The notes under the pieces are model-generated. The model did no database searches. It was not told the origin of the DNA and saw only the letters and a list, made by a program, of their open reading frames with translations. Shown here one piece after another: positions 215 to 36,670 of a DNA stretch of 64,000 bases. Made by a program: the position numbers and the translations under genes. The stretch's first letter is position 1. Each line of letters starts with the position of its first letter. Origin of the DNA: Aquimarina megaterium XH134 (GTDB taxonomy: Bacteria > Bacteroidota > Bacteroidia > Flavobacteriales > Flavobacteriaceae); assembly GCF_000520975.1 (NCBI RefSeq), contig NZ_JACB01000010.1, positions 1 to 64,000 on the forward strand, given 5' to 3'.

Positions 215-2059
215 ATGAAGGTTATTACAATTTCTTTACTACTCATTATTCAGATAACATACGCGCAAGAAAAAGAATTAGATAGTATCAAAAGGAGGGT
301 AGATACTTATCTTCAAAGAGATTCTACGAGAGTTCAACTTTTAAACCAATTAACCAAGTATTACACACTTCGGGATATCTCAAAAAGTAAAGCTTTACTT
401 CTAGAAGCTATAGAGATTAGCAAAGAGATTGGTTATATAAGTGGATTAGGTAGCTCATATACGGGTTATAGTATTTTTCATACTCAATCAGGTAACTATG
501 ATAAAGGTCTTGTTTATGCCTTAAAAGCAAAAAAAATTCAAGATAGTATTAATGATGTGTCTGGCTTATTATTAACCAATAATTGTATGGCTAGAATATA
601 CATTCATTTAAAAAAATCAAAAAAGGCAATCAAAATTCAATTAGAAAATTTAGAGCTTTTAAAGAACCAACCGCTTAGCCCCCAAAAAGCCGGGATACAT
701 TTTTATTTGGCTAATGCCTATGGTGATATAAATAATTTTGAAGAAGCAGAATTTCATTACAAGAAAGCCAAATATATTGCCAAGGAAACCAAATTTACAA
801 CAGGAGTGTATATTGCAAATTCATCATTGGGTGTATTAGCAAATAGGAGAGGTGAGTTTAAAGAAGCAATTCATTATTTGAAACCAACTTTGAAGTTTTA
901 TGAAGAAAATAATCAATTGGCAAATATTGCACATACTAATTTAGAAATGGCAAAGTCCTATGCCAATTTAGGAAATGTTAATAAAGCAATAGAGTTCACT
1001 AGCAAAGCAATACGAATTTATAAAAACCAAAAAAATCTAAAATCATTACAATCTGCATACTTAAACCAAAGTAACTTCTATAAACGAATTAATAATTATT
1101 TAAAAGCTAATAAGTTTTTAGAAGATCACTATAAGATTAAGGATAGCCTTTTCTCTTATGACAATAAAGTCGTAATGGAAGAAATGCAAGTTAAGTATGA
1201 AACAGAAAAAATAAAAAAGGACAAAGAATTAGCAGAACAAAAAGCAATTGTAGTTATTGCCCAAAAAAGACAGAATAAAGAATATTTCATTATCACTTTG
1301 GCAGGAATAGGTTTCTTATTCCTACTTTCATTGTTTTATTTTGAAAGAACTAAAATAAAAAGAAAAGCAATATTTCTTTCACGAGAATTAGAAGAAACCC
1401 AAAAACGACTAGAGATAGAAAAGCAATATAAAGAAAGTGAATTAAAAGCTTTAAAGTCTCAGATGAATCCTCATTTTATATTTAATTCTCTCAATTCTAT
1501 TCAGGATCTAATCCTTCAGCAAAATACAGATTCTTCTTATGATTATATTGTTTTGTTTGCTCAATTGGTTAGAAACACCTTAAACTATTCTAGTAAAAAT
1601 TTTATAGTGATAGAAAAAGAACTTGAGTTTTTAGATGTATATCTTCAACTAGAGAAATTAAGATTTGAAGATGATTTTACATACACTATACAAAGCATAA
1701 ATACAGAGGGTTTATCTGTACTTTCTCTAATGGTTCAACCTTTTATAGAAAATGCATTACTGCATGGTTTGCTGCATAAAGCTGGTAAAAAACAACTTAC
1801 TATAGATTTTACTTTTACAGATCACTTGTTATGTACGATCATCGATAATGGTATTGGTAGAAAGGAAGCAAAGAAGATACAGGAGCGACAAGGTAATCAC
1901 CATGAATCTTTTGCCTTAAATGCTATACAACAGCGATTAGAAATCTTAAAAGATCAGTATGGTACAGATGTGGGATATCAGATATTTGATTTATATAATG
2001 ATCAATTGGCTATGGGTACCAGAGTAGAAATCAGAATGCCATATCAAAAAGAGTATTAA
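215..2059 (+). CDS. TPR-containing LytS-type sensor histidine kinase
   Basis: A 614-residue membrane sensor. The signal peptide (residues 1-17, ending YAQ) precedes about seven tetratricopeptide repeats in the periplasm (roughly 30-330). A single transmembrane helix lies near 357-375, followed by a coiled coil and a His_kinase domain (PF06580). The phospho-acceptor is H420 in MNPHFIFNSLNSIQ. The ATP-binding part shows an N-box near 511 (FIENALLHGL) and the DNGIGRK motif near 547. Kinases of this family usually pass phosphate to LytTR response regulators. None is adjacent here, and the nearest is at 38808-39563. A tandem paralogue ends at position 34. The ligand sensed by the TPR part is unknown. 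Confidence 0.9.
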   Translation: MKVITISLLLIIQITYAQEKELDSIKRRVDTYLQRDSTRVQLLNQLTKYYTLRDISKSKALLLEAIEISKEIGYISGLGSSYTGYSIFHTQSGNYDKGLVYALKAKKIQDSINDVSGLLLTNNCMARIYIHLKKSKKAIKIQLENLELLKNQPLSPQKAGIHFYLANAYGDINNFEEAEFHYKKAKYIAKETKFTTGVYIANSSLGVLANRRGEFKEAIHYLKPTLKFYEENNQLANIAHTNLEMAKSYANLGNVNKAIEFTSKAIRIYKNQKNLKSLQSAYLNQSNFYKRINNYLKANKFLEDHYKIKDSLFSYDNKVVMEEMQVKYETEKIKKDKELAEQKAIVVIAQKRQNKEYFIITLAGIGFLFLLSLFYFERTKIKRKAIFLSRELEETQKRLEIEKQYKESELKALKSQMNPHFIFNSLNSIQDLILQQNTDSSYDYIVLFAQLVRNTLNYSSKNFIVIEKELEFLDVYLQLEKLRFEDDFTYTIQSINTEGLSVLSLMVQPFIENALLHGLLHKAGKKQLTIDFTFTDHLLCTIIDNGIGRKEAKKIQERQGNHHESFALNAIQQRLEILKDQYGTDVGYQIFDLYNDQLAMGTRVEIRMPYQKEY

Positions 2060-2187
2060 TTGGTGATGTAGTTCTATGTACTGTAATAAAAAACGGATTA
2101 CAGAAAATTAAAATCAGCTTGAGAGGTATGTATATGCATTATCAGGATAAGAACTAAATGATATTATACCATACAAAATAGGCTAAA

Positions 2188-2451
2188 CCCCACTTGCCTA
2201 AGTGGGGGAGGGTACTTATATAAGTGGATAAGTTGATGGCATATATGTTATAGGGGTACTTATGGTAGTGGGTGCTGCTACCTGTAACTCTGGTTAGGGG
2301 TACTTCGATTAGTGGGAGGGGGTACTTAAAAGAGAGGTGTGCCCTATGTTTAACAGAGGAAGTACCTGTGTTGAACATAGGATGTCCCTGTGTTTGCACA
2401 CGGGGAGGGGTACTTCTGCAGTAGGGGAAGGGTACTTGATAAGTACCCCCC
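2188..2451. repeat. Tandem array of about twelve 22-bp imperfect palindromic units
   Basis: Units start every 22 bp from 2188 to 2430. The octamer GGGTACTT occurs at 2210, 2254, 2298, 2320, 2408 and 2430, all separated by exact multiples of 22 (44, 44, 22, 88, 22). Several units are dyads: CCCCACTT/AAGTGGGG at 2188, CCCTGTGT/ACACGGGG at 2386 and GGGTACTT/AAGTACCC at 2430-2448. A further inverted pair, CCTATGTTTAAC/GTTGAACATAGG, spans two units (2343-2382). There are no unique spacers, so this is not CRISPR. The period is not a multiple of three, so it is not a protein repeat. It lies in a long non-coding gap, and its function is unknown. Confidence 0.8.
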
Positions 2452-2590
2452 AGGTATCCTATTTTATCCTAAAAAAGTTTAAACGACTTCATTTTTTATA
2501 GCTTTTAAAATATAGATTGCCAATTCATTTATATAATAGTATACTTCATATTATCAGTAGTATACCTTCTTTTTTATAGCAAACTTTCCA

Positions 2591-2656: not shown

Positions 2657-2908
2657 CCAATGATTAGTAATTCAAAAAATTAAAATATGGTAAAACAACT
2701 ACTCCGATTTCAATATTTATTTCAGAATGTATTGCGCTTTTCTAAACCAAAACATAGCTATATCGCTGTTTTAGTAATTGGTAACTATTTGGAAACAAAA
2801 CATTCTTAAAAAACTATTAGAAGGAATCCCTTCCTTTTCTAACACTCTCAAGTATACATCGAAAACAAACATCAAAAAAAGTAACCCATAATAATGAGAA
2901 ACTGTACT
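2657..2908 (+). other. Leader region before the lipoprotein cluster
   Basis: About 250 AT-rich bases without a convincing gene. A 40-codon open frame (2687-2809, beginning MVKQLLRFQYLF) is present but has no recognisable family or ribosome-binding site, so it is not called. A weak hairpin (AGAAGGAA with TTCCTTTTCT, about 2818-2841) precedes the lipoprotein start. Confidence 0.3.
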
Positions 2909-4570
2909 ATGAAAACAATTAAATTACTTTTGCTAGGTATAGTAATACTAGCACTATCTTGTAGTAAAGATGATGATGCTACACCACCAGTTAATAAAGC
3001 GCCAGAGATCAAGGCGCAATCCTTTACCGTATCAGAATCAGCGACAGATACAGATGTATTTGGTACCGTAAAAGCAACCGATCCAGACAAAGATGCATTA
3101 AGTTATAGTATTACCGCAAACAGTGATAACCTATTCGAGATCACAAAAGCAGGAGCACTAAGTTTGGTAGCAGGAAAAACATTAGATTTTGAAACCAAAA
3201 CGACTTATGAAATCACTGTAGAAGTAACTGATGGTAAAGCCAAAGCATCTGCAAAAATAACAATTACCGTGACAGATGTAAACGAAAATCAATCACCAGT
3301 AATTGATGATCAAACATTTACAGTAGCCGAAGATGTTACAAATTCTGTTATTGATGTCGTAACAGCAACAGATCCAGAAGGAGATACATTAACCTATAGA
3401 ATTAAAGATAATGATGATAACCTATTTGAAGTTGCAGGAGATGGGATACTAAGTCTTGCTCCTAATAAAGTTTTGGATTACGAATCAAGGACTAACTATG
3501 CAATTACGATAACAGTTTCTGATGGAAATGGAGGAGAAAGTTCGGCTAGAATATATATTAATATAACCGATGTTTTAGAAACGGGAGATCAAGGACTAAG
3601 AGTTCGTACTTTGGCAGGTAATGGAACGTTTGGTTTTACAAACGGTACAGGGACATCAGCACAGTTTTCAACTCCAATAGGGGTAGATGTTGATAGTAAT
3701 GGTAATATCTATGTAGCAGATCGAAACAATAATGTTATTCGCAAAATTACTCCTGCAGGGGTAGTGAGCACTTTTGCAGGAAGTACTTTTGGATACGCAG
3801 ATGGTACGGGTACTGCTGCTAAATTTAATAGCCCTTATGGCATAGCTATAGATGCAAATGATAATATATATGTAGGAGATTATATAAATCATCGCATTCG
3901 TAAAATTACTCCGGCAGGTGTGGTGACTACATTGGCAGGTTCTGGCGTTGCAGGTTCTGCAGATGGTACGGGTACCGCTGCACAGTTTAATGAACCTTAT
4001 GGATTGGATGTAGATAGTAATGGCAATGTTTATGTAGCAGATTATGGAAACAACCGTATTCGTAAAATTACTCCCGCTGGTGTAGTGACTACACTTGCAG
4101 GAAGTTCTCGTGGTTTCGCAGATGGCACAGGTACTGCAGCCATGTTTAAAGCTCCACATGATGTTGCTGTAGATAATAATGATAACGTATACGTAACAGA
4201 TGGCTTTAATCACCGTATTCGTAAAGTCACTCCAGCAGGTGTAGTTACTACGTTTGCAGGAACTAATCAAGGTTTTGCAGATGGTACAGGTACGCAAGCA
4301 AGGTTTAATATTCCAGAAGGTATAACTATTGATAATTCAGGAAATCTATACGTAACAGATAGGAGTAATCACTGTATCCGTAAGATTACATCTGCAGGTG
4401 TTGTAAGTATTCTTGCAGGATCTAATGATTTTGGATTTGTAAATGGTACAGGAGCTACAGCTCGATTCAGACAACCCTCAGGGATTACAGTAAATGCATC
4501 CGGAGTTTTTTATGTAACAGATGAGTCTAATCACAGTGTTCGTAAAATAGAACCTTTTTCAAATAATTAA
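2909..4570 (+). CDS. Surface lipoprotein with cadherin-like domains and NHL propeller (paralogue 1)
   Basis: The lipoprotein signal peptide ends LALSC, followed by SKDDD, the acidic signal that sends Bacteroidota lipoproteins to the cell surface. Two cadherin-like domains follow (roughly residues 30-125 and 130-225, with DxNxxP-type linkers). After them come six NHL repeats with the pattern P-x-G-[IV]-x-[IV]-D-x-x-[GD]-N-[IVL]-Y-V-[AT]-D and RIRKITPAGVV, predicting a six-bladed propeller. An ATG five codons upstream (2894) is possible. The start at 2909 (MKTIKLLLL) is chosen because paralogues 2 and 4 begin identically. Only 10 bp separate it from the next gene, so the two are probably co-transcribed. 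A binding or adhesion role is likely; the ligand is unknown. Confidence 0.85.
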   Translation: MKTIKLLLLGIVILALSCSKDDDATPPVNKAPEIKAQSFTVSESATDTDVFGTVKATDPDKDALSYSITANSDNLFEITKAGALSLVAGKTLDFETKTTYEITVEVTDGKAKASAKITITVTDVNENQSPVIDDQTFTVAEDVTNSVIDVVTATDPEGDTLTYRIKDNDDNLFEVAGDGILSLAPNKVLDYESRTNYAITITVSDGNGGESSARIYINITDVLETGDQGLRVRTLAGNGTFGFTNGTGTSAQFSTPIGVDVDSNGNIYVADRNNNVIRKITPAGVVSTFAGSTFGYADGTGTAAKFNSPYGIAIDANDNIYVGDYINHRIRKITPAGVVTTLAGSGVAGSADGTGTAAQFNEPYGLDVDSNGNVYVADYGNNRIRKITPAGVVTTLAGSSRGFADGTGTAAMFKAPHDVAVDNNDNVYVTDGFNHRIRKVTPAGVVTTFAGTNQGFADGTGTQARFNIPEGITIDNSGNLYVTDRSNHCIRKITSAGVVSILAGSNDFGFVNGTGATARFRQPSGITVNASGVFYVTDESNHSVRKIEPFSNN

Positions 4571-4580
4571 AAAACATAGT

Positions 4581-6488
4581 ATGAAAACAATAAAACTACT
4601 GTTGCTATGTACAGCAATATTACTACTATCCTGTAGTAAAGATGATGATGCAACGACCCCCCTGGCTAATAAAGCACCAGAGATTAAGACACAATCTTTT
4701 AACGTGTCAGAATCGGCAGCAGATACAGATATATTTGGTACTGTAAAAGCTACCGATGCAGACCAAGATGAGTTAAGCTATAGCATTACTGCAAACAGTG
4801 ATGATCTATTCGAAATCACTAAAGCAGGAGCACTAAGCCTGGTGGCAGGTAAGACACTTGATTTTGAAACCAAAACGACTCATGAGATTACGGTTGAAGT
4901 AACCGATGGAAAGGCCAAAGCAGCTGCAAAAATAACGATTGCTGTTATCGATGTAGATGAAAACATGCCGCCTGTTATTGCAGCACAAAGTTTTACTATT
5001 GCAGAAAACAGCTCTTTTAATACAGTTGTTGGTTCTGTGGTTGCTACAGATCCCGATGGTGATACGCTAACGTATACACTTACTAACTCTATTGGTACAG
5101 TAGCTACATTTGAAATTGTAGGTAATGAGATCAAACTAAAATCAGGTGTTTTAAATTATGAAGATTTTACAAAACATAATGTTACTATTACTGTAGACGA
5201 TGGTACACTTACGGCATCGGCACAGGTTACCATAAATGTTACTGATGTAAATGAAGCACCAACATTCGCAGATCGGAATTATACTTTTAGTCAACCAGAA
5301 GATATCGATGATACGGTTATTATTGCTACGGTAACGGCTACAGATCCTGAAGGGGATAATCTAATTTATACGCTTAATAATAACCCGGGCAGTCTTTTTG
5401 AAATCAACAGTGATGGTGAAATAAGTTTATCAACAGGAAAATTTCTAGATTACGAAAACCAAACCAGTCATACCATAACAGTACAAGCAACCGATGGAAA
5501 CCTTACAGCCTTGCAACATGGAGTACGTATTAATGTAACCGATGTTACTGATGTAAGTGTAACATCTGTGGGACCTACAGGAGGTTTTGCATTATATAAC
5601 AACCCTACGGGAGTGGCAGTAGATGGATCAGGAAATATATATATTGCAGATTTCAGTAATCATCGTATTCGTAAAATTACCCCAGGAGGAACAGCAAGTA
5701 TTTTTGCAGGAGGCACTCAAGGATTTGCAGATGGTACAGGTGCTGCAGCACGGTTTAATTTTCCTTTTGGAGTAGCAGTAGACGCTGCAGGTAATGTATA
5801 TGTTGCAGATCGAAATAATCACCGTATTCGTAAAATTACACCTAATGGAGTAGTAACTACTGTAGCAGGAGGAACTCAAGGTTATTTTGATGCTACAGGT
5901 ACTGCAGCTCGATTTAATCACCCAGAAGGGGTAGCAATAGATGCCTCAGGAAATGTGTATGTGTCTGATTATCAGAATCACCGTATTCGTAAAATTACAC
6001 CTGCCGGAGTGGTGTCTACTTTTGTAGGATCTACTCAAGGCTTTGCCAATGGGACTGGTACTGCAGCTAGATTTGATAATCCAGCAGGAATAACTATAGA
6101 TACCAATGGAAATCTATATGTAGCTGATGAGCGAAATCATCGTATTCGTAAAATTACTCCAGTAGGTGTAGTAACCACTTTTGCTGGTACTATTGCAGGA
6201 TTTGCAGATAGTAGTTCTCTTATATCAGCTCGGTTTTTTTCACCTACCGGGGTAGCAGTGGATGCATCGGGAAATGTATACGTAGCCGATAGACTAAACC
6301 ATCGTATTCGTAAGATTACTCCTGCTGGAGTAGTATCGACTATAGCAGGATCTAGTCAGGGATTTGCAGATGGTACAGGTTCGGTAGCTAGATTTAGACA
6401 TCCTTCGGGAGTGGCGGTAGATGCATCGGGGAATGTATATGTAGCCGATGAACGCAATAACCGTATCCGTAAGATCATCATTCAATAA
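4581..6488 (+). CDS. Surface lipoprotein with cadherin-like domains and NHL propeller (paralogue 2)
   Basis: A 635-residue lipoprotein starting MKTIKLLLL with a lipobox ending LLSC and the export signal SKDDD. It has three cadherin-like domains (about residues 30-330), one more than paralogue 1, then six NHL repeats (about 335-635). The repeats here are the most uniform of the four paralogues, with ASGNVYVADxxNHRIRKI recurring, which suggests recent repeat homogenisation. There is no T9SS sorting domain, so it should be lipid-anchored on the surface. It follows paralogue 1 by 10 bp and is followed by a hairpin at 6500-6538. Confidence 0.85.
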   Translation: MKTIKLLLLCTAILLLSCSKDDDATTPLANKAPEIKTQSFNVSESAADTDIFGTVKATDADQDELSYSITANSDDLFEITKAGALSLVAGKTLDFETKTTHEITVEVTDGKAKAAAKITIAVIDVDENMPPVIAAQSFTIAENSSFNTVVGSVVATDPDGDTLTYTLTNSIGTVATFEIVGNEIKLKSGVLNYEDFTKHNVTITVDDGTLTASAQVTINVTDVNEAPTFADRNYTFSQPEDIDDTVIIATVTATDPEGDNLIYTLNNNPGSLFEINSDGEISLSTGKFLDYENQTSHTITVQATDGNLTALQHGVRINVTDVTDVSVTSVGPTGGFALYNNPTGVAVDGSGNIYIADFSNHRIRKITPGGTASIFAGGTQGFADGTGAAARFNFPFGVAVDAAGNVYVADRNNHRIRKITPNGVVTTVAGGTQGYFDATGTAARFNHPEGVAIDASGNVYVSDYQNHRIRKITPAGVVSTFVGSTQGFANGTGTAARFDNPAGITIDTNGNLYVADERNHRIRKITPVGVVTTFAGTIAGFADSSSLISARFFSPTGVAVDASGNVYVADRLNHRIRKITPAGVVSTIAGSSQGFADGTGSVARFRHPSGVAVDASGNVYVADERNNRIRKIIIQ

Positions 6489-6499
6489 ACATAGGTATG

Positions 6500-6538
6500 C
6501 AACCCTCATCTCAGGTTTTAGAACTTGAGATGAGGTTG
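6500..6538 (+). terminator. Hairpin after lipoprotein paralogue 2
   Basis: An imperfect 17-18 bp stem: CAACCCTCATCTCAGGTT pairs with AACTTGAGATGAGGTTG around a short loop, 12 bp after the stop codon. There is no strong T-run, so it may act as a weak terminator or an mRNA-stabilising hairpin. The core (CATCTCA ... TGAGATG) recurs after paralogue 4 at 10263-10294. Confidence 0.6.
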
Positions 6539-6584
6539 ATGTTTAGTAAAACGATGATATACCCAAAATTTAGACTATAACACA

Positions 6585-8513
6585 ATGAAAAAAATATCCA
6601 AAGCCCTCATGCTTTTTACTATTGGAGTAGTATTACTTCTTAATAGTTGTAGCAAAGATGATGAGGCAACAACTCCTGTAGAGCCTCCCAAAAATATCGC
6701 TCCAGAAATTAAGGCACAATCTTTTAACGTATCAGAAACTGCAGCCAATACAGATGTATTTGGTATGGTAAAAGCTACCGATGCAGACAAAGATGAGTTA
6801 AGTTATAGCATTACTGCAAATAGTGATGATGTATTTGAAATTACTAAAGCAGGAGCACTAAGCCTGGTAGCAGGAAAAACATTGGATTTTGAAACCAAAA
6901 CTACTCATGAAATTACGGTAGAAGTAACCGATGGTAAAGCCAAAGCATCTGCAAAAATAACGATTACTGTTATTGATGTAGACGAAAACATGCCACCGGT
7001 AATTACGGCACAAAGTTTTACCATTGCAGAGAATAGCTCTTTTAATACAATTGTAGGTAGTGTAGTGGCTAGTGATCCTGATAATGATAACCTTACATAT
7101 ACCATGACTAATCTTGCAGGTGCTGTAGCCGAATTTGAAATGACGGGCAATGAGATCAAACTAAAATCAGGATTCTTGGATTATGAAACGCTTACCAGTC
7201 ATACCGCAACAGTTACAGTAAACGATGGTACATTTACAACATCTGCGCAGGTTACTATTACAGTTACAAATGTAAATGAAGCGCCTGTTTTTGGGAATAG
7301 CTCTACTACATTTACTGCTGCCGAAAATATAGCAGAAACTGTTGTTATAGGTACTTTGAGTGCAATAGATCCAGAGGCTGATGCGGTTAGCTATAGGTTG
7401 GCTAATAATGTACACAGTGATAATTTTGAAATTGATGTGAATACTGGTGAAATAAGCCTAAAATCCAGAGGGAGTTTAGATTTTGAAACCAGAACAAGTT
7501 ACTCGTTCCAAGCTCATGTAAGTGACGGAACGTTAAGCGCGACCCCCGTTACAGTAACCATAAACATTACTAACGTTTCTGATGTAAATGTAGGGAGCAT
7601 TTTAGCTCTTAATAAACTGCAAACGGGAATAGTAGTAGATGCCTCGGGAAATATATATGTAGCAGATACTCGTAAAGATCGTATTCTTAAATACCTTTCT
7701 TCGGGAGGAACGACAGTTCTGGCAGGATCTGGTGTTGCAGGGTTTGCAGATGGTCCTGGTATAACTGCTCAGTTTGATAACCCTAATGGTTTGGCAATAG
7801 ATACAGCAGGAAACATTTATGTTGCTGATACTGGTAATCATCGAATTAGAAAAATTACTCCTGCGGGTGTTGTATCTACTATTGCAGGATCGGGTATTAG
7901 CGGTTTTGTAAATGGTACAGGTATCGCGGCTCAGTTTGATTCTCCGTATGGGATAGATGTGCATGCAAATGGTGATCTATATGTAGCAGATACAGGCAAT
8001 CATAGTATCCGTTATATTAATACAGCTGGTGTAGTATATACTCACGCAGGTACTGGTGCTAGTGGTTTGGTTAATGGGAACACTACCACAGCCCAGTTTA
8101 ATGAACCTATTGATGTAGTTATTGGTCTATCCACAAACCTATATATAGCAGATGCTTCGAATCATGTAATTCGCCAGATTACCGATACGGGATCAGTGCT
8201 CACTCTTGCAGGGTCTTCACAGGGGTATGCAGATGGTGCTGGTGCGACAGCGCAGTTTAGTTCTCCGTATGGAGTTACCCGAGATACCAGCGGTAATATA
8301 TATGTAGCTGATAAAGATAATCATCGTATTCGTAAAATTACTCCTGCAGGAGTCGTGTCTACCTATGCCGGTTCTGGTACTATGGGCTTTGCCAATGGTA
8401 ATGCTAATGTTGCTCAATTTAATGAGCCGATTAATCTGTGTATAGATGGTTCGGGAACTATTTATGTCACCGATTATCAAAATGATTATATCCGAAAAAT
8501 ATTTGTTCAATAA
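6585..8513 (+). CDS. Surface lipoprotein with cadherin-like domains and NHL propeller (paralogue 3)
   Basis: A 642-residue protein with a slightly different signal peptide (MKKISKALMLF ... LLNSC) followed by SKDDE. It has three cadherin-like domains, then six NHL repeats. The first and fourth repeats are degenerate: the fourth has lost the usual DxxGN turn, reading IGLSTNLYIADASNH. The first cadherin domain is nearly identical to that of its neighbours, whereas the second half is more diverged, as expected for tandem duplicates whose propellers evolve toward different partners. It is flanked by hairpins at 6500 and 8525, so it may be its own transcription unit. Confidence 0.85.
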   Translation: MKKISKALMLFTIGVVLLLNSCSKDDEATTPVEPPKNIAPEIKAQSFNVSETAANTDVFGMVKATDADKDELSYSITANSDDVFEITKAGALSLVAGKTLDFETKTTHEITVEVTDGKAKASAKITITVIDVDENMPPVITAQSFTIAENSSFNTIVGSVVASDPDNDNLTYTMTNLAGAVAEFEMTGNEIKLKSGFLDYETLTSHTATVTVNDGTFTTSAQVTITVTNVNEAPVFGNSSTTFTAAENIAETVVIGTLSAIDPEADAVSYRLANNVHSDNFEIDVNTGEISLKSRGSLDFETRTSYSFQAHVSDGTLSATPVTVTINITNVSDVNVGSILALNKLQTGIVVDASGNIYVADTRKDRILKYLSSGGTTVLAGSGVAGFADGPGITAQFDNPNGLAIDTAGNIYVADTGNHRIRKITPAGVVSTIAGSGISGFVNGTGIAAQFDSPYGIDVHANGDLYVADTGNHSIRYINTAGVVYTHAGTGASGLVNGNTTTAQFNEPIDVVIGLSTNLYIADASNHVIRQITDTGSVLTLAGSSQGYADGAGATAQFSSPYGVTRDTSGNIYVADKDNHRIRKITPAGVVSTYAGSGTMGFANGNANVAQFNEPINLCIDGSGTIYVTDYQNDYIRKIFVQ

Positions 8514-8524
8514 ATAATAACACA

Positions 8525-8563
8525 AATAGGGTTTACTGTAAAAGTTTTACAGTAAACCCTATT
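8525..8563 (+). terminator. Long perfect hairpin after lipoprotein paralogue 3
   Basis: AATAGGGTTTACTGTA (8525-8540) and its exact complement TACAGTAAACCCTATT (8548-8563) flank a 7-base loop, 11 bp after the stop. The stem is strong, but the following bases (CAACTT) are not a T-tract. It may therefore be a transcript-end stabiliser rather than a classical intrinsic terminator. Confidence 0.7.
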
Positions 8564-8584
8564 CAACTTAAATAAGATGATATT

Positions 8585-10246
8585 ATGAAAACTATAAAAC
8601 TACTGTTGCTATGTACAGCAATAATACTACTATCGTGTAGTAAAGATGATGACCCTGCTATTACACCGGTTAATAATGCCCCAGAGATCAAAGCACAATC
8701 TTTTAATGCTTCAGAGTCGGTAACAGATACAGATGTATTAGGTACTGTAGAAGCTACCGATGCAGATAAAGAGGAGCTAAGCTATAGCATTACTGCAAAC
8801 AGCGATAATCTATTCGAAATCACTAAAGCAGGAGCATTAAGTTTGGTAACAGGAAAAACATTAGATTTTGAAACCAAAACTACACATGAAATCACTGTAG
8901 AAGTAACCGATGGTAAAGCTAAAGCAGCTGCAAAAATAACAATTACGGTTATCGATGTAGATGAAAATATGCCCCCTGTTATTGCAGATCAAACTTTTAG
9001 TGTGGCAGAAAATATAAATACAACAGATGTAATAGGTACTATTGTAGCAACTGATCCAGATGGCGATAATTTGACTTATACACTTACTAACCCAGATAAT
9101 CCTACGACGGCATTTATTATTGAAGATGATAAGATAAAACTATCCCAAGGAGAGTCGTTAGATTTTGAAACTACAACTAGTCATGTTGTAACCATTACCG
9201 CAAGTGATGGAACACTTACAGCATCTGCACAGATTACTATTAATGTTACTGATGTAGTAGAAACAAGTACCGTAACAGTGAGTACTTTTGCTGGGAGCTT
9301 TTCTGGGTATGTCGATGCTACAGGTACCGCGGCAAGATTTGCTCTTCCTTCGGGGTGTGCAGTAGATAGTCATGGTAATCTCTTTGTCGCAGATGTTTCT
9401 AATCAACGTATTCGTAAAATTACCCCGGCAGGAGTAGTAACTACCTTTGCAGGGAGCACTTTTGGATATGCAGATGGTACAGGTACTGCGGCACAATTTA
9501 ATGCCCCATATGATATTGCTATAGATGCAAATGATAATCTTTATATTGCAGATTCTAATAATAATCGTATTCGTAAAATTACTCCGGCAGGAGTAGTAAC
9601 CACGCTTGCAGGTTCTGGGATATCTGGTTCTGCAAATGGTACAGGTACAGCAGCAAGATTTAATGGCCCTAGAGGGGTAGCAGTTGATGCTTCAGGAAAT
9701 GTCTATGTTTCAGACTATGGTAATCATCGTATTCGTAAAGTTACTCCAACGGGAGTAGTAACAAATCTTGCAGGAGGGTCTCCAGGTTTTGCAGATGGTA
9801 CAGGACTTAATGCAAGGTTTAATCACCCATCTGGATTAACAGTAAACAGTAACGGAGATATATACGTATGTGATAATGCTAATCATCGCGTTCGTAAAAT
9901 TACTCCAGCAGGAGTAGTAGCTACTATTGTAGGGAATGGTACCGCAGGTTTTCTTGATAATACAGGTACTTCTGCAAGATTTAGCTACCCTAGAGATATC
10001 ACCGTAGATGCCAATGATAATTTGTATGTGACAGATTTTGGTAATCGTAGAGTTCGTAAAATTACTCCTGCTAAAGTAGTTACTACTTTAGCAGGTAATG
10101 GATCTACAGGTTCTACAGATGGTGATGGGACAGTTGCAACATTTAATTCAGCATATGGGATCGCTTCTGCTGGTTCAGGAATTTTTTATGTAACCGATAA
10201 TGGAAGTAGCCGTATTCGTAAAATTGTTATTTCTAATAATCGTTAA
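8585..10246 (+). CDS. Surface lipoprotein with cadherin-like domains and NHL propeller (paralogue 4)
   Basis: A 553-residue lipoprotein (MKTIKLLLL, lipobox LLSC, then SKDDD) with two cadherin-like domains and six NHL repeats, the same layout as paralogue 1. The final repeat is worn, having lost the central D in IASAGSGIFYVTDNG. The start codon matches paralogues 1 and 2 exactly. Same-strand tandem arrangement and the shared first cadherin domain show that the family grew by local duplication. Its role is probably recognition or adhesion at the cell surface; no enzyme motif is visible. Confidence 0.85.
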   Translation: MKTIKLLLLCTAIILLSCSKDDDPAITPVNNAPEIKAQSFNASESVTDTDVLGTVEATDADKEELSYSITANSDNLFEITKAGALSLVTGKTLDFETKTTHEITVEVTDGKAKAAAKITITVIDVDENMPPVIADQTFSVAENINTTDVIGTIVATDPDGDNLTYTLTNPDNPTTAFIIEDDKIKLSQGESLDFETTTSHVVTITASDGTLTASAQITINVTDVVETSTVTVSTFAGSFSGYVDATGTAARFALPSGCAVDSHGNLFVADVSNQRIRKITPAGVVTTFAGSTFGYADGTGTAAQFNAPYDIAIDANDNLYIADSNNNRIRKITPAGVVTTLAGSGISGSANGTGTAARFNGPRGVAVDASGNVYVSDYGNHRIRKVTPTGVVTNLAGGSPGFADGTGLNARFNHPSGLTVNSNGDIYVCDNANHRVRKITPAGVVATIVGNGTAGFLDNTGTSARFSYPRDITVDANDNLYVTDFGNRRVRKITPAKVVTTLAGNGSTGSTDGDGTVATFNSAYGIASAGSGIFYVTDNGSSRIRKIVISNNR

Positions 10247-10262
10247 AAATAGATGAATCAAG

Positions 10263-10294
10263 CACCATCTCAAGTTCTAAGATTTGGGATGGTG
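10263..10294 (+). terminator. Hairpin after lipoprotein paralogue 4
   Basis: CACCATCTCAA pairs with TTGGGATGGTG (one G-T wobble) around a 10-base loop, 16 bp after the stop codon. It resembles the hairpin at 6500-6538, so the duplicated unit probably included its 3' hairpin. Confidence 0.6.
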
Positions 10295-10346
10295 TTACTA
10301 TGTTACCTATAATTTTTAATACAGTAATTACTATAAAAAAACTAAA

Positions 10347-11360
10347 ATGAAAAAAATCACAATCTTAGGATTATGCATATTATTTTTTAGCTATAACCTA
10401 AAAGCGCAAGGAGGGATAAAACATCAAACCCAACAATTAGAATCTATACAGGTAGGAAATTATACCGCGTATTTAACACAGCAGAGCAGTAGTGGTACCT
10501 ATGAAGGAGGCTTGGATGTATTGCTATATAAAATTACCAATTTTAAAGAGTATACAGTTCAACCTGGTGTTCATAAGGAGGTATATATGCTGTTCGGAGA
10601 AGATCCTGATCGTCCTGATGATCATAAAGAAACCATGTTTTTACCAGATAATGAAGCATTCCCGATAACCTATGTTCAAAAAGTTTATGAAGGAAGCCCG
10701 GCTATGCAAAAAGAGATAGGATATTCTCCTAGAATTAATAGACTGTCTGATGGAAATCGAATAGTTTTTATTGATGGTAAAATTTTTATGATTGAAGATT
10801 GGGTTGATAAGGATAATTATGAGCTTAAAGCTGTATTAGAGTATCAAGCTAAAAAAATGGGAGGATTAAAAAAGATGAAGGAAGTGATGAAATCTCCTAA
10901 AAAAATGAAGGCGATGCAGCCGCATAAAACCCTTCAGGAATATTTAGACAATGCATATCATAAACAACAAGAAGTATATGCAAAATGGATAAAGAGTCCT
11001 AAAAACGCAGCACTTATTGAAAATATAGACCAGATTAGAGAATTTATAATAGGAGCGATTAATAAGCAAAGAGATGACTGGTATAATTCTGCAGAGTATA
11101 AGCGTATTAAAGAAAGAAATGCATCTGCAAGACAAAGCAGTCTCGAAAGCGAAGTGACTATTAGCAATAATACAGGAAAAGATATTTATATTTATGAAGA
11201 AGGTTCTAGCAATGGATCACGAGTTTCAGCAAATGGAAGAGGTACTTTTAATTGTAAGAAAAACCAATACTATAGTTTTAGTGGAAATTCATCTGCAAGT
11301 AATGGAACCTTAATTGTTGGAGCAAACCAAAACTGTGGTACAACGGTAAATGTAAATTAA
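10347..11360 (+). CDS. Secreted protein of unknown function
   Basis: A 337-residue protein with a clear signal peptide (residues 1-20, ending LKAQ). The middle is rich in Lys and Met (KKMGGLKKMKEVMK) and is predicted helical. The last 65 residues change to a Ser/Gly/Asn-rich beta part with two cysteines (near 308 and 331), reminiscent of small beta-sandwich tails. No T9SS sorting signature or known domain could be recognised. It follows the cadherin-NHL cluster on the same strand and is closed by a strong terminator at 11458, but nothing in the sequence ties it functionally to the cluster. Confidence 0.7.
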   Translation: MKKITILGLCILFFSYNLKAQGGIKHQTQQLESIQVGNYTAYLTQQSSSGTYEGGLDVLLYKITNFKEYTVQPGVHKEVYMLFGEDPDRPDDHKETMFLPDNEAFPITYVQKVYEGSPAMQKEIGYSPRINRLSDGNRIVFIDGKIFMIEDWVDKDNYELKAVLEYQAKKMGGLKKMKEVMKSPKKMKAMQPHKTLQEYLDNAYHKQQEVYAKWIKSPKNAALIENIDQIREFIIGAINKQRDDWYNSAEYKRIKERNASARQSSLESEVTISNNTGKDIYIYEEGSSNGSRVSANGRGTFNCKKNQYYSFSGNSSASNGTLIVGANQNCGTTVNVN

Positions 11361-11457
11361 AGACACTTGTTGTTGTCTTTACAAGTAATCATCCTACCCT
11401 GATTTGAATTTGTTTTTAGAAGATAAAACTTTTCTAGAACAATTGAAATGGATAACC

Positions 11458-11486
11458 AGAGGCAGACGTAATAATCGTCTGCCTCT
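11458..11486 (+). terminator. Intrinsic terminator
   Basis: A perfect 11-bp stem, AGAGGCAGACG with CGTCTGCCTCT, has a 7-base loop and is followed by TTGTTATTT. It lies about 100 bp after the secreted-protein gene. The remaining gap up to 11687 is AT-rich and holds the upstream region of trxB; a loose TAnnTTTG-like box (TACTTTTAC) lies at about 11659-11667. Confidence 0.8.
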
Positions 11487-11687
11487 TTGTTATTTATAAT
11501 GAAAATATTTATGCTTTTTATGTTGATATACTATTGCAAAAGTAGTTGTTGTAATTGGTAGCTGTAGTAAATTCAATATATAAAGCTTAGATATAAGATG
11601 TCTATATAGATATAACAATTCTTAATAACTTTACTGTAAGGTTTATGATCAAATTGCTACTTTTACATCATATAAAATGATGAGAAT

Positions 11688-32399: not shown

Positions 32400-32536
32400 T
32401 TTTTAGATAGCCTAATTAATGAAACTCTTAGAGCATATTGAGCTAGTTGTTTATCCCTTCAGCTTTCATAAAAATGCTTTCTTTTTCTAAGTACCTTTTT
32501 TTGTCTTGAATTACCCATAAGGATGTAATAAAAATA

Positions 32537-32577
32537 GAAGTTAAGATTTATAAATTGATAAGTTAAGATTTATAAAT
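32537..32577. promoter_or_regulatory. Direct repeat resembling a LytTR operator, upstream of the peptide gene
   Basis: The 18-mer AAGTTAAGATTTATAAAT occurs twice (32538-32555 and 32560-32577), 22 bp apart. The 9-mer TAAGTTAAG (32559-32567) fits the published LytTR half-site consensus [TA][AC][CA]GTTN[AG][TG] at every position, and GAAGTTAAG (32537-32545) fits at eight. The 13-bp spacing between them is also that of LytTR operators. The site is about 160 bp before the double-glycine peptide gene at 32733. Binding by a LytTR regulator, such as the one at 38808, is a hypothesis. Confidence 0.5.
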
Positions 32578-36541: not shown

Positions 36542-36670
36542 GATGATAAGTTTTAATTACCTACTCTGTTAGATAAGGTTTTCGGCTGCCCCTTTATCAA
36601 AATTAATCGCTGTAGATAATTTTGATTCTGAAACTAAAGTATGTAGCAATTAGGGGGATTAAAAATGAAG

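Follow-up and report, generated by a model that had tools for sequence, protein, structure and literature searches.

A dispersed intergenic repeat of Aquimarina with a strict 22-bp frame, tentatively read as a phased docking array for a DNA-binding protein

In a stretch of 64,000 nucleotides of Aquimarina megaterium XH134 (the window) we analyzed an intergenic array of 22-bp units, which is one copy of a repeat family dispersed in the genus. The reading we prefer, with somewhat less than even confidence, is that the array acts at the level of DNA as a docking array for a putative oligomeric protein, and that it is dispersed like a small interspersed repeat. It would then belong to a set of small Aquimarina repeats that are dispersed between genes and maintained by vertical descent, each element providing a platform on double-stranded DNA made of degenerate half-sites which are phased at 22 bp and alternately oriented. 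The putative DNA-binding protein would nucleate on the near-perfect palindromes and extend from there over the weaker, equally phased sites between them, leading to a short one-faced nucleoprotein array between genes. We infer the protein binding, the nucleation on palindromes, and that the arrays found in two genera are one kind of thing. As a guess, the job of the elements could be insulating or anchoring the DNA between genes, or ending transcription.

A sequence-only reading had counted about twelve units in the array and noticed a word recurring at exact multiples of 22 bp. Cut from position 2188, the array yields exactly twelve contiguous 22-mers (Table 1), and the word GGGTACTT starts at 2210, 2254, 2298, 2320, 2408 and 2430, with spacings of 44, 44, 22, 88 and 22. 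The identity at lag 22 amounts to 0.483 compared to 0.263 ± 0.029 on average in dinucleotide shuffles (highest 0.372). None of 2000 shuffles was as high, neither at this lag nor at any lag from 10 to 45, and 3 out of 10,623 overlapping 264-bp windows across the 64 kb reach this value. Because the units are just about half alike, Tandem Repeats Finder sees the array as two fragments only (2343-2395 and 2402-2445). The first and the last unit are near-perfect palindromes and represent the best kept units in the Aquimarina loci; an outer inverted repeat just outside the array is, judged by eye, not kept in every copy. A second short 22-bp tandem repeat in the window (32528-32576, 2.2 copies) is A/T-rich and its sequence is unrelated to the array.

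Table 1. Position of the array, its parts and its neighbors in the window.
Feature	Position	Strand	Basis and remarks
Upstream gene, TPR plus His_kinase (PF06580) sensor kinase	215-2059	+	ORF list, domain scan
G026 junction	2089-2093		Here relative G026 has ~1.1 kb extra DNA (another gene) upstream of the element
Outer inverted repeat, left arm	2175-2185		Pair I11, partner 2455-2465, 91% complementary, just outside the array
Window array	2188-2451	+	Twelve 22-bp units, 264 bp; a copy of the dispersed repeat of Aquimarina, homologous to the others over ~2186-2451
5′ end palindrome, CCCCACTT-GCCT-AAGTGGGG	2188-2207		Helix 1: 96% paired, 5/7 pairs invariant; one of the units best conserved in the family
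Unit-joint segment, AAGTGGGGGAGGGTACTT	2200-2217	+	AA-N5-T-nn-A-N5-TT layout in outline, G replacing T and A (by eye; layout from the second genus)
Inner dyad, CCTATGTTTAACAGAGG / CCTGTGTTGAACATAGG	2343-2381		17-nt pair 2343-2359/2365-2381
3′ end palindrome, GGGTACTT-GAT-AAGTACCC	2430-2448		Helix 11: 99% paired, 5/7 pairs invariant
Outer inverted repeat, right arm	2455-2465		Partner of 2175-2185
Downstream gene, NHL + cadherin repeat protein	2894-4570	+	Domain scan; lipoprotein-like start (by eye)

No long ORF runs over the array, with one 81-aa ORF overlapping it on the minus strand. The array is located approximately 130 bp 3′ of the TPR/His_kinase gene and 443 bp 5′ of the NHL/cadherin-repeat gene, both on the forward strand, in agreement with the earlier description of a long non-coding gap between a sensor kinase and a surface-lipoprotein cluster. 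Downstream follows a tandem cluster of related NHL/cadherin-type proteins (2894-11552), and in relative G026 (locus L214) several related kinase copies lie nearby. The word CACAAAC occurs in pairs 20 bp apart (starts 42/62 and 2593/2613, within 40-75 and 2591-2626) ahead of both the His_kinase gene and the lipoprotein-like gene. These pairs account for 4 of its 9 forward-strand occurrences in the window, the 66 bp flanking the two pairs are also similar (82%), and the pairs look like the site of a common regulator, perhaps an operator of LytTR type, which is a guess from the spacing. A DUF805b cis-regulatory RNA (44.9 bits) is found further away on the minus strand (36558-36595).

The sequence-only reading had suggested looking for the unit elsewhere in the genome. 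A search with the window array returned nine places including the window copy and a sequence profile added a tenth (C1:395366), so that ten copies are present in the own genome. The eight others from the first search show 70-78% identity with the window copy, in one case over the first 160 bp only, and have unrelated flanks. A pattern scan of named genomes gave 7 loci, all of them in Aquimarina. With a profile built from 23 copies (R1) the element was found at E 0.001 in 20 of the 66 Aquimarina genomes, in some of them, e.g. G023 and G066, as just a short part; BLAST with one copy at E 1e-4 found it in 12 of the 66. Over 296 genomes of the order R1 retrieved the own genome, plus G322 and G342 weakly. 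The G+C content per 100-bp window is 0.44-0.50 within the array and 0.23-0.37 around it, with G exceeding C on the forward strand; the high G content had been called foreign, which applies to the composition alone, the family being genus-wide. Phages and plasmids gave no match for the window element or for one array of the second genus described below, viral contigs gave no match for the element pattern, and no published description of this repeat was found in the literature under open licence.

Seven copies could be compared to their orthologue in another species, with identities of 0.95, 0.88, 0.87, 0.97, 0.88, 0.89 and 0.95. The downstream 250 bp are recognizable in all seven pairs (0.76-0.96) and the upstream 250 bp in four; in the other three (the window, C41 and C26 sites) the upstream flank is wholly or partly replaced. 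The idea that the element closes a gene slot arises from these breaks. At the window site, G026 (Aq78) possesses the element and directly upstream of it approximately 1.1 kb with another gene, while G001 (AU58) contains neither the element nor this gene, and approximately 195 bp of unrelated DNA instead. The copies are old and have persisted at the same places in different species, yet they are not fixed. Most of the 31 aligned copies have about equal length; the copies of G005 and G008 carry one extra 22-bp unit, and others are short by 21 or 23 bp. Two side observations concern single sites. Right behind the C26 copy a direct repeat of approximately 90 bp (locus L208, 9892-9979 and 12151-12248) brackets approximately 2.2 kb that are absent from G026, as if lost or gained by recombination, and the orthologue of the C15 copy in L055 (G071:C48) is cut off by an apparent insertion of IS3 type (two ORFs, by eye).

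These facts could also be explained by a non-autonomous mobile repeat (MITE- or REP-like) that has no host function, whose copies were spread by a transposase or recombinase working at the end palindromes, the array between them serving as its substrate or arising as a by-product. The ten copies with unrelated flanks in one genome, the ends that are sharply defined in the copy alignment, the window site that is occupied in G000 and G026 and absent in G001, and the three replaced upstream flanks fit such an origin. We nevertheless consider it rather unlikely. Among the features of a MITE, the ends are conserved and the window copy has an outer inverted repeat, but no target-site duplication was seen by eye in the copy alignment, and no clean empty site was found. 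The age of the copies and their conservation at orthologous sites are further arguments against it, as is the fact that the two Y1_Tnp genes of the own genome (the only transposase family searched) adjoin other palindromes. These two loci (L031, L032) are each flanked by palindromes of their own, and one of them lies approximately 1.3 kb from the C7 copy.

A hint towards the docking array arises from a second genus, probably Chryseobacterium, which belongs to another family of the order. Weak hits revealed arrays with the frame A-N5-TT-N4-AA-N5-T plus 2 nt at a pitch of 22 bp, comprising 9 to 21 units each and scoring 37-75 compared to at most 9.9 in shuffles. A model built from 36 windows of these arrays (R2; 20 forward, 16 reverse) found arrays in 64 of 148 genomes of this genus and in 2 of 395 genomes of a phylum sample, both in the family of the second genus. 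In common with Aquimarina these arrays have the 22-bp pitch, the TT-NNNN-AA frame, G/C-rich arms, the intergenic location, and orthologous sites with whole-unit differences. They differ in the A and T outside the arms, in their other vocabulary, in their palindrome, and in 8-22 units being called per array. R2 matches none of the copies in the own genome; the two groups may therefore be only alike, and common descent is not proved.

To describe the arms of the units we used 41 arrays (39 from the second genus, 2 from a sister genus) with 349 strict units. Complementarity of the two arms within a unit was 0.455, compared to 0.447 ± 0.010 for re-paired arms, and with arms taken as 5-nt words and permuted within arrays it was 0.403 compared to 0.394 ± 0.011; mismatches comprised 159 G.U and 215 A.C. 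The two arms of one unit thus vary independently in the second genus. While fully complementary units occur in excess (26 of 349, expected 12.2 ± 3.3), 24 of them represent one palindrome with small variants, and among distinct units no excess is left (6 of 287 compared to 7.0 ± 2.6).

Of 531 TT..AA gaps in a free parse into 1091 half-sites, 366 measured 4 nt and 129 measured 3 nt, and of 519 T-nn-A linkers 454 measured 2 nt. Half-sites on the two sides of the linker are correlated in G/C polarity (r 0.41, n 215; permutation within arrays 0.07 ± 0.065, 0 of 1000 as high), those on the two sides of the gap are not (r −0.03, n 349). Complementarity across the linker lies under the random value (0.42 compared to 0.47 ± 0.01). 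The rigid, polarity-sharing segment in the arrays of the second genus is accordingly AA-N5-T-nn-A-N5-TT, with a length of approximately 18 bp, and what looks like a hairpin is the place where two such segments meet. By eye, the Aquimarina array seems to share the look of this segment. The dyads noticed by the sequence-only reading, which regarded each unit as a degenerate palindrome, are present; the independence of the arms and a rigid segment straddling the unit joint, both found in the second genus, make this view of the unit partly misleading.

One near-identical palindrome, ACCCCCTTACC(C/T/A)AAGGGGG, occurs once in 24 of the 41 arrays, in approximately eleven different make-ups of the array (by eye). 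The conservation of its core is built in by the search pattern, its presence across varied arrays is not. The blocks adjacent to it reach 1.03 and 0.84 bits, those more than 22 bp away 0.27-0.61 bits on average. It is absent from the Aquimarina loci tested. In eight species of the second genus an array is found at one place approximately 80-150 bp from the start of a peptidase M24 gene (L129, L144, L147, L149, L154, L158, L169, L172; M24 by Pfam hits, methionine aminopeptidase by eye). Here whole units were gained or lost in the middle while one end is well kept. A flanking family common to the arrays was not found in the 59 scanned out of 81 listed flanking ORFs: they match 69 Pfam families, the commonest of which, HTH_3, occurs in 4 of the 59. 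Just behind the long array of L110 (approximately 1700-1770) we observed two T-arm-like GGGATTCGAACCC stretches, where ARAGORN reports no tRNA.

A transcribed structured RNA must be weighed as well: successive stem-loops located behind genes would terminate transcription, shield the 3′ ends of mRNAs or hold an RNA-binding protein. Part of its appeal lies in the strands: the same strand is the G-rich one in 31 of 31 Aquimarina copies. With genes predicted by a simple ORF caller, the copies were assigned manually to 24 sites, and we counted 11 convergent and 4 divergent sites, 8 in tandem with the gene direction and 1 in tandem against it. At 19 of the 24 sites the preceding gene is co-directional with the element (binomial by hand 0.003; 14 of the first 18, p 0.015, before six further sites were added), and 8 of the 9 tandem sites run in gene direction (binomial by hand 0.02). 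One must keep in mind that convergent sites are uninformative on direction, which means that location and orientation are both contained in the count of 19 of 24. Excluded were G029, L063 and L069/L084, whose upstream gene is of the same type as at the C26 site, the partial copies L048, L055 and L095, and L091, L093 and L105, whose sites were counted already. In the second genus the orientation is mixed, with 16 ++, 13 −−, 6 convergent (+−) and 5 divergent (−+) among the 41 arrays, one being open, which is at odds with a transcribed element.

The forward strand of the window array also folds better than shuffles (z −4.55), but the minus strand does so too (z −2.94). The structured RNA that the sequence-only reading had considered is backed by the fold and fails in the compensatory changes of conserved stems that characterize a structured RNA family: in the unit stems of Aquimarina (77 pairs in 11 stems) double changes affect 12 pairs compared to 11.7 ± 2.0 expected. 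The percentage of paired positions and the covariation score lie slightly above those of most shuffles, 3 and 8 of which, respectively, were as high out of 500; according to the warning of the tool, such a signal can be caused by relatedness. Long-range RNA pairing was rejected since the consensus fold is almost without covariation (RNAalifold term −0.47). Together with the missing Rfam match for the window array, and the independent arms without excess of G.U in the second genus, this makes an RNA element unlikely in our view.

Still less probable is a DNA-topology site, where gyrase or an HU-like protein would bind DNA that is bent or wrapped. The model is BIME-2 of E. coli, which binds gyrase (PMC2817692), and convergent sites outnumber divergent ones by 11 to 4 among the 24 Aquimarina sites (by hand). 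The second genus lacks such a convergent bias, and an 11-bp rhythm of A/T is absent (lag-11 autocorrelation −0.06 and −0.02 compared to 0.32 and 0.24 at lag 22), which rules against 11-bp wrapping of the DNA.

We give hardly any credit to a partition site, a terminus site, a polar site of KOPS type or a phase-variable VNTR, part of which had been proposed from the sequence. On the forward strand GGGNAGGG, the E. coli KOPS word, is present three times within the array and one time elsewhere in the window, and some copies differ by one unit. But the G-rich strand points towards the terminus in 6 of 15 arrays from four genomes, and in the second genus the 34 sites placed in 12 complete genomes do not cluster relative to dnaA (KS p 0.49 against an even spread). 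Units that are 48% alike, in copies mostly of one length that do not come from strains of one species, give no support to a VNTR. The mixed orientation includes 4 of 4 arrays towards the origin in G005 and 2 of 2 towards the terminus in G019. For the dnaA distances, which were calculated manually, genome lengths were rounded; two DnaA hits are partial and several of the 34 sites orthologous. From Aquimarina, six sites in two genomes were placed relative to origin and terminus.

Returning to the docking array, the arguments for it are the strict 22-bp phase, the family and its orthologues, the lack of excess double changes in the Aquimarina stems, the independent arms, the rigid polar linker, the common palindrome, and the whole-unit differences, with the arm and linker tests coming from the second genus and not from Aquimarina. 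Weighing against it are the folding of both strands, the raw excess of fully complementary units, the slight excess in pairing and covariation, and the lack of R2 matches among the copies of the own genome; the co-directional upstream genes also fit a transcribed element. Among the roles suggested from the sequence, an operator array, taken as such a docking array for a protein, fits best, the bound protein being putative. With more reserve we propose a wider, hitherto undescribed class of arrays dispersed over the chromosomes of Flavobacteriales, in which a conserved palindromic nucleation site would lie amid 8-20 phased degenerate half-site pairs, and a putative filament- or cluster-forming DNA-binding protein would organize intergenic DNA. 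The two families would then have diverged in vocabulary; this is possible, though doubtful. The nucleoid proteins of these bacteria are, to our knowledge, little studied. If the elements are docking platforms, they offer a direct route to a chromosome-organizing or transcription-ending protein. If they are mobile repeats only, what remains is a family of repeats whose 22-bp frame is unusually strict. In either case a natural misreading is corrected, as a hairpin-like appearance of the units does not have to mean RNA.

Compared to known systems, a CRISPR array, which the sequence-only reading had already dismissed, is not supported: the units are contiguous and 48% alike at lag 22 compared to near-identical repeats with unique spacers. 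The iterons of plasmid R6K also measure 22 bp and are repeated in helical phase. Iterons lie next to a rep gene as direct repeats of nearly identical sequence, whereas here half-sites alternate, units are 48% alike, and the plasmid search gave no match. BOX repeats are modular, and we know of no 22-bp chain in BOX or RUP. Both are small interspersed intergenic repeats of Streptococcus pneumoniae, according to PMC3049150; the Aquimarina element shares this property and differs in sequence and organism. BIME-2 elements are described in PMC2817692 as intergenic, dispersed and made of regularly spaced palindromic sites in alternating orientation, with REP/BIME copy numbers usually over 100 per genome. 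The regular spacing and the alternating orientation are found here as well (in the window array and, by the half-site parse, in the second genus). The differences are approximately 10 copies in the own genome and the lack of a RAYT beside the array copies in the sequence, together with the 22-bp pitch and degenerate half-sites; a RAYT-linked REP was rejected as the palindromes beside both Y1_Tnp genes differ from the array (by reading). The Aquimarina element thus represents a new family of repeats. It is built like a phased docking array, resembles BIME in layout and departs from it in two features.
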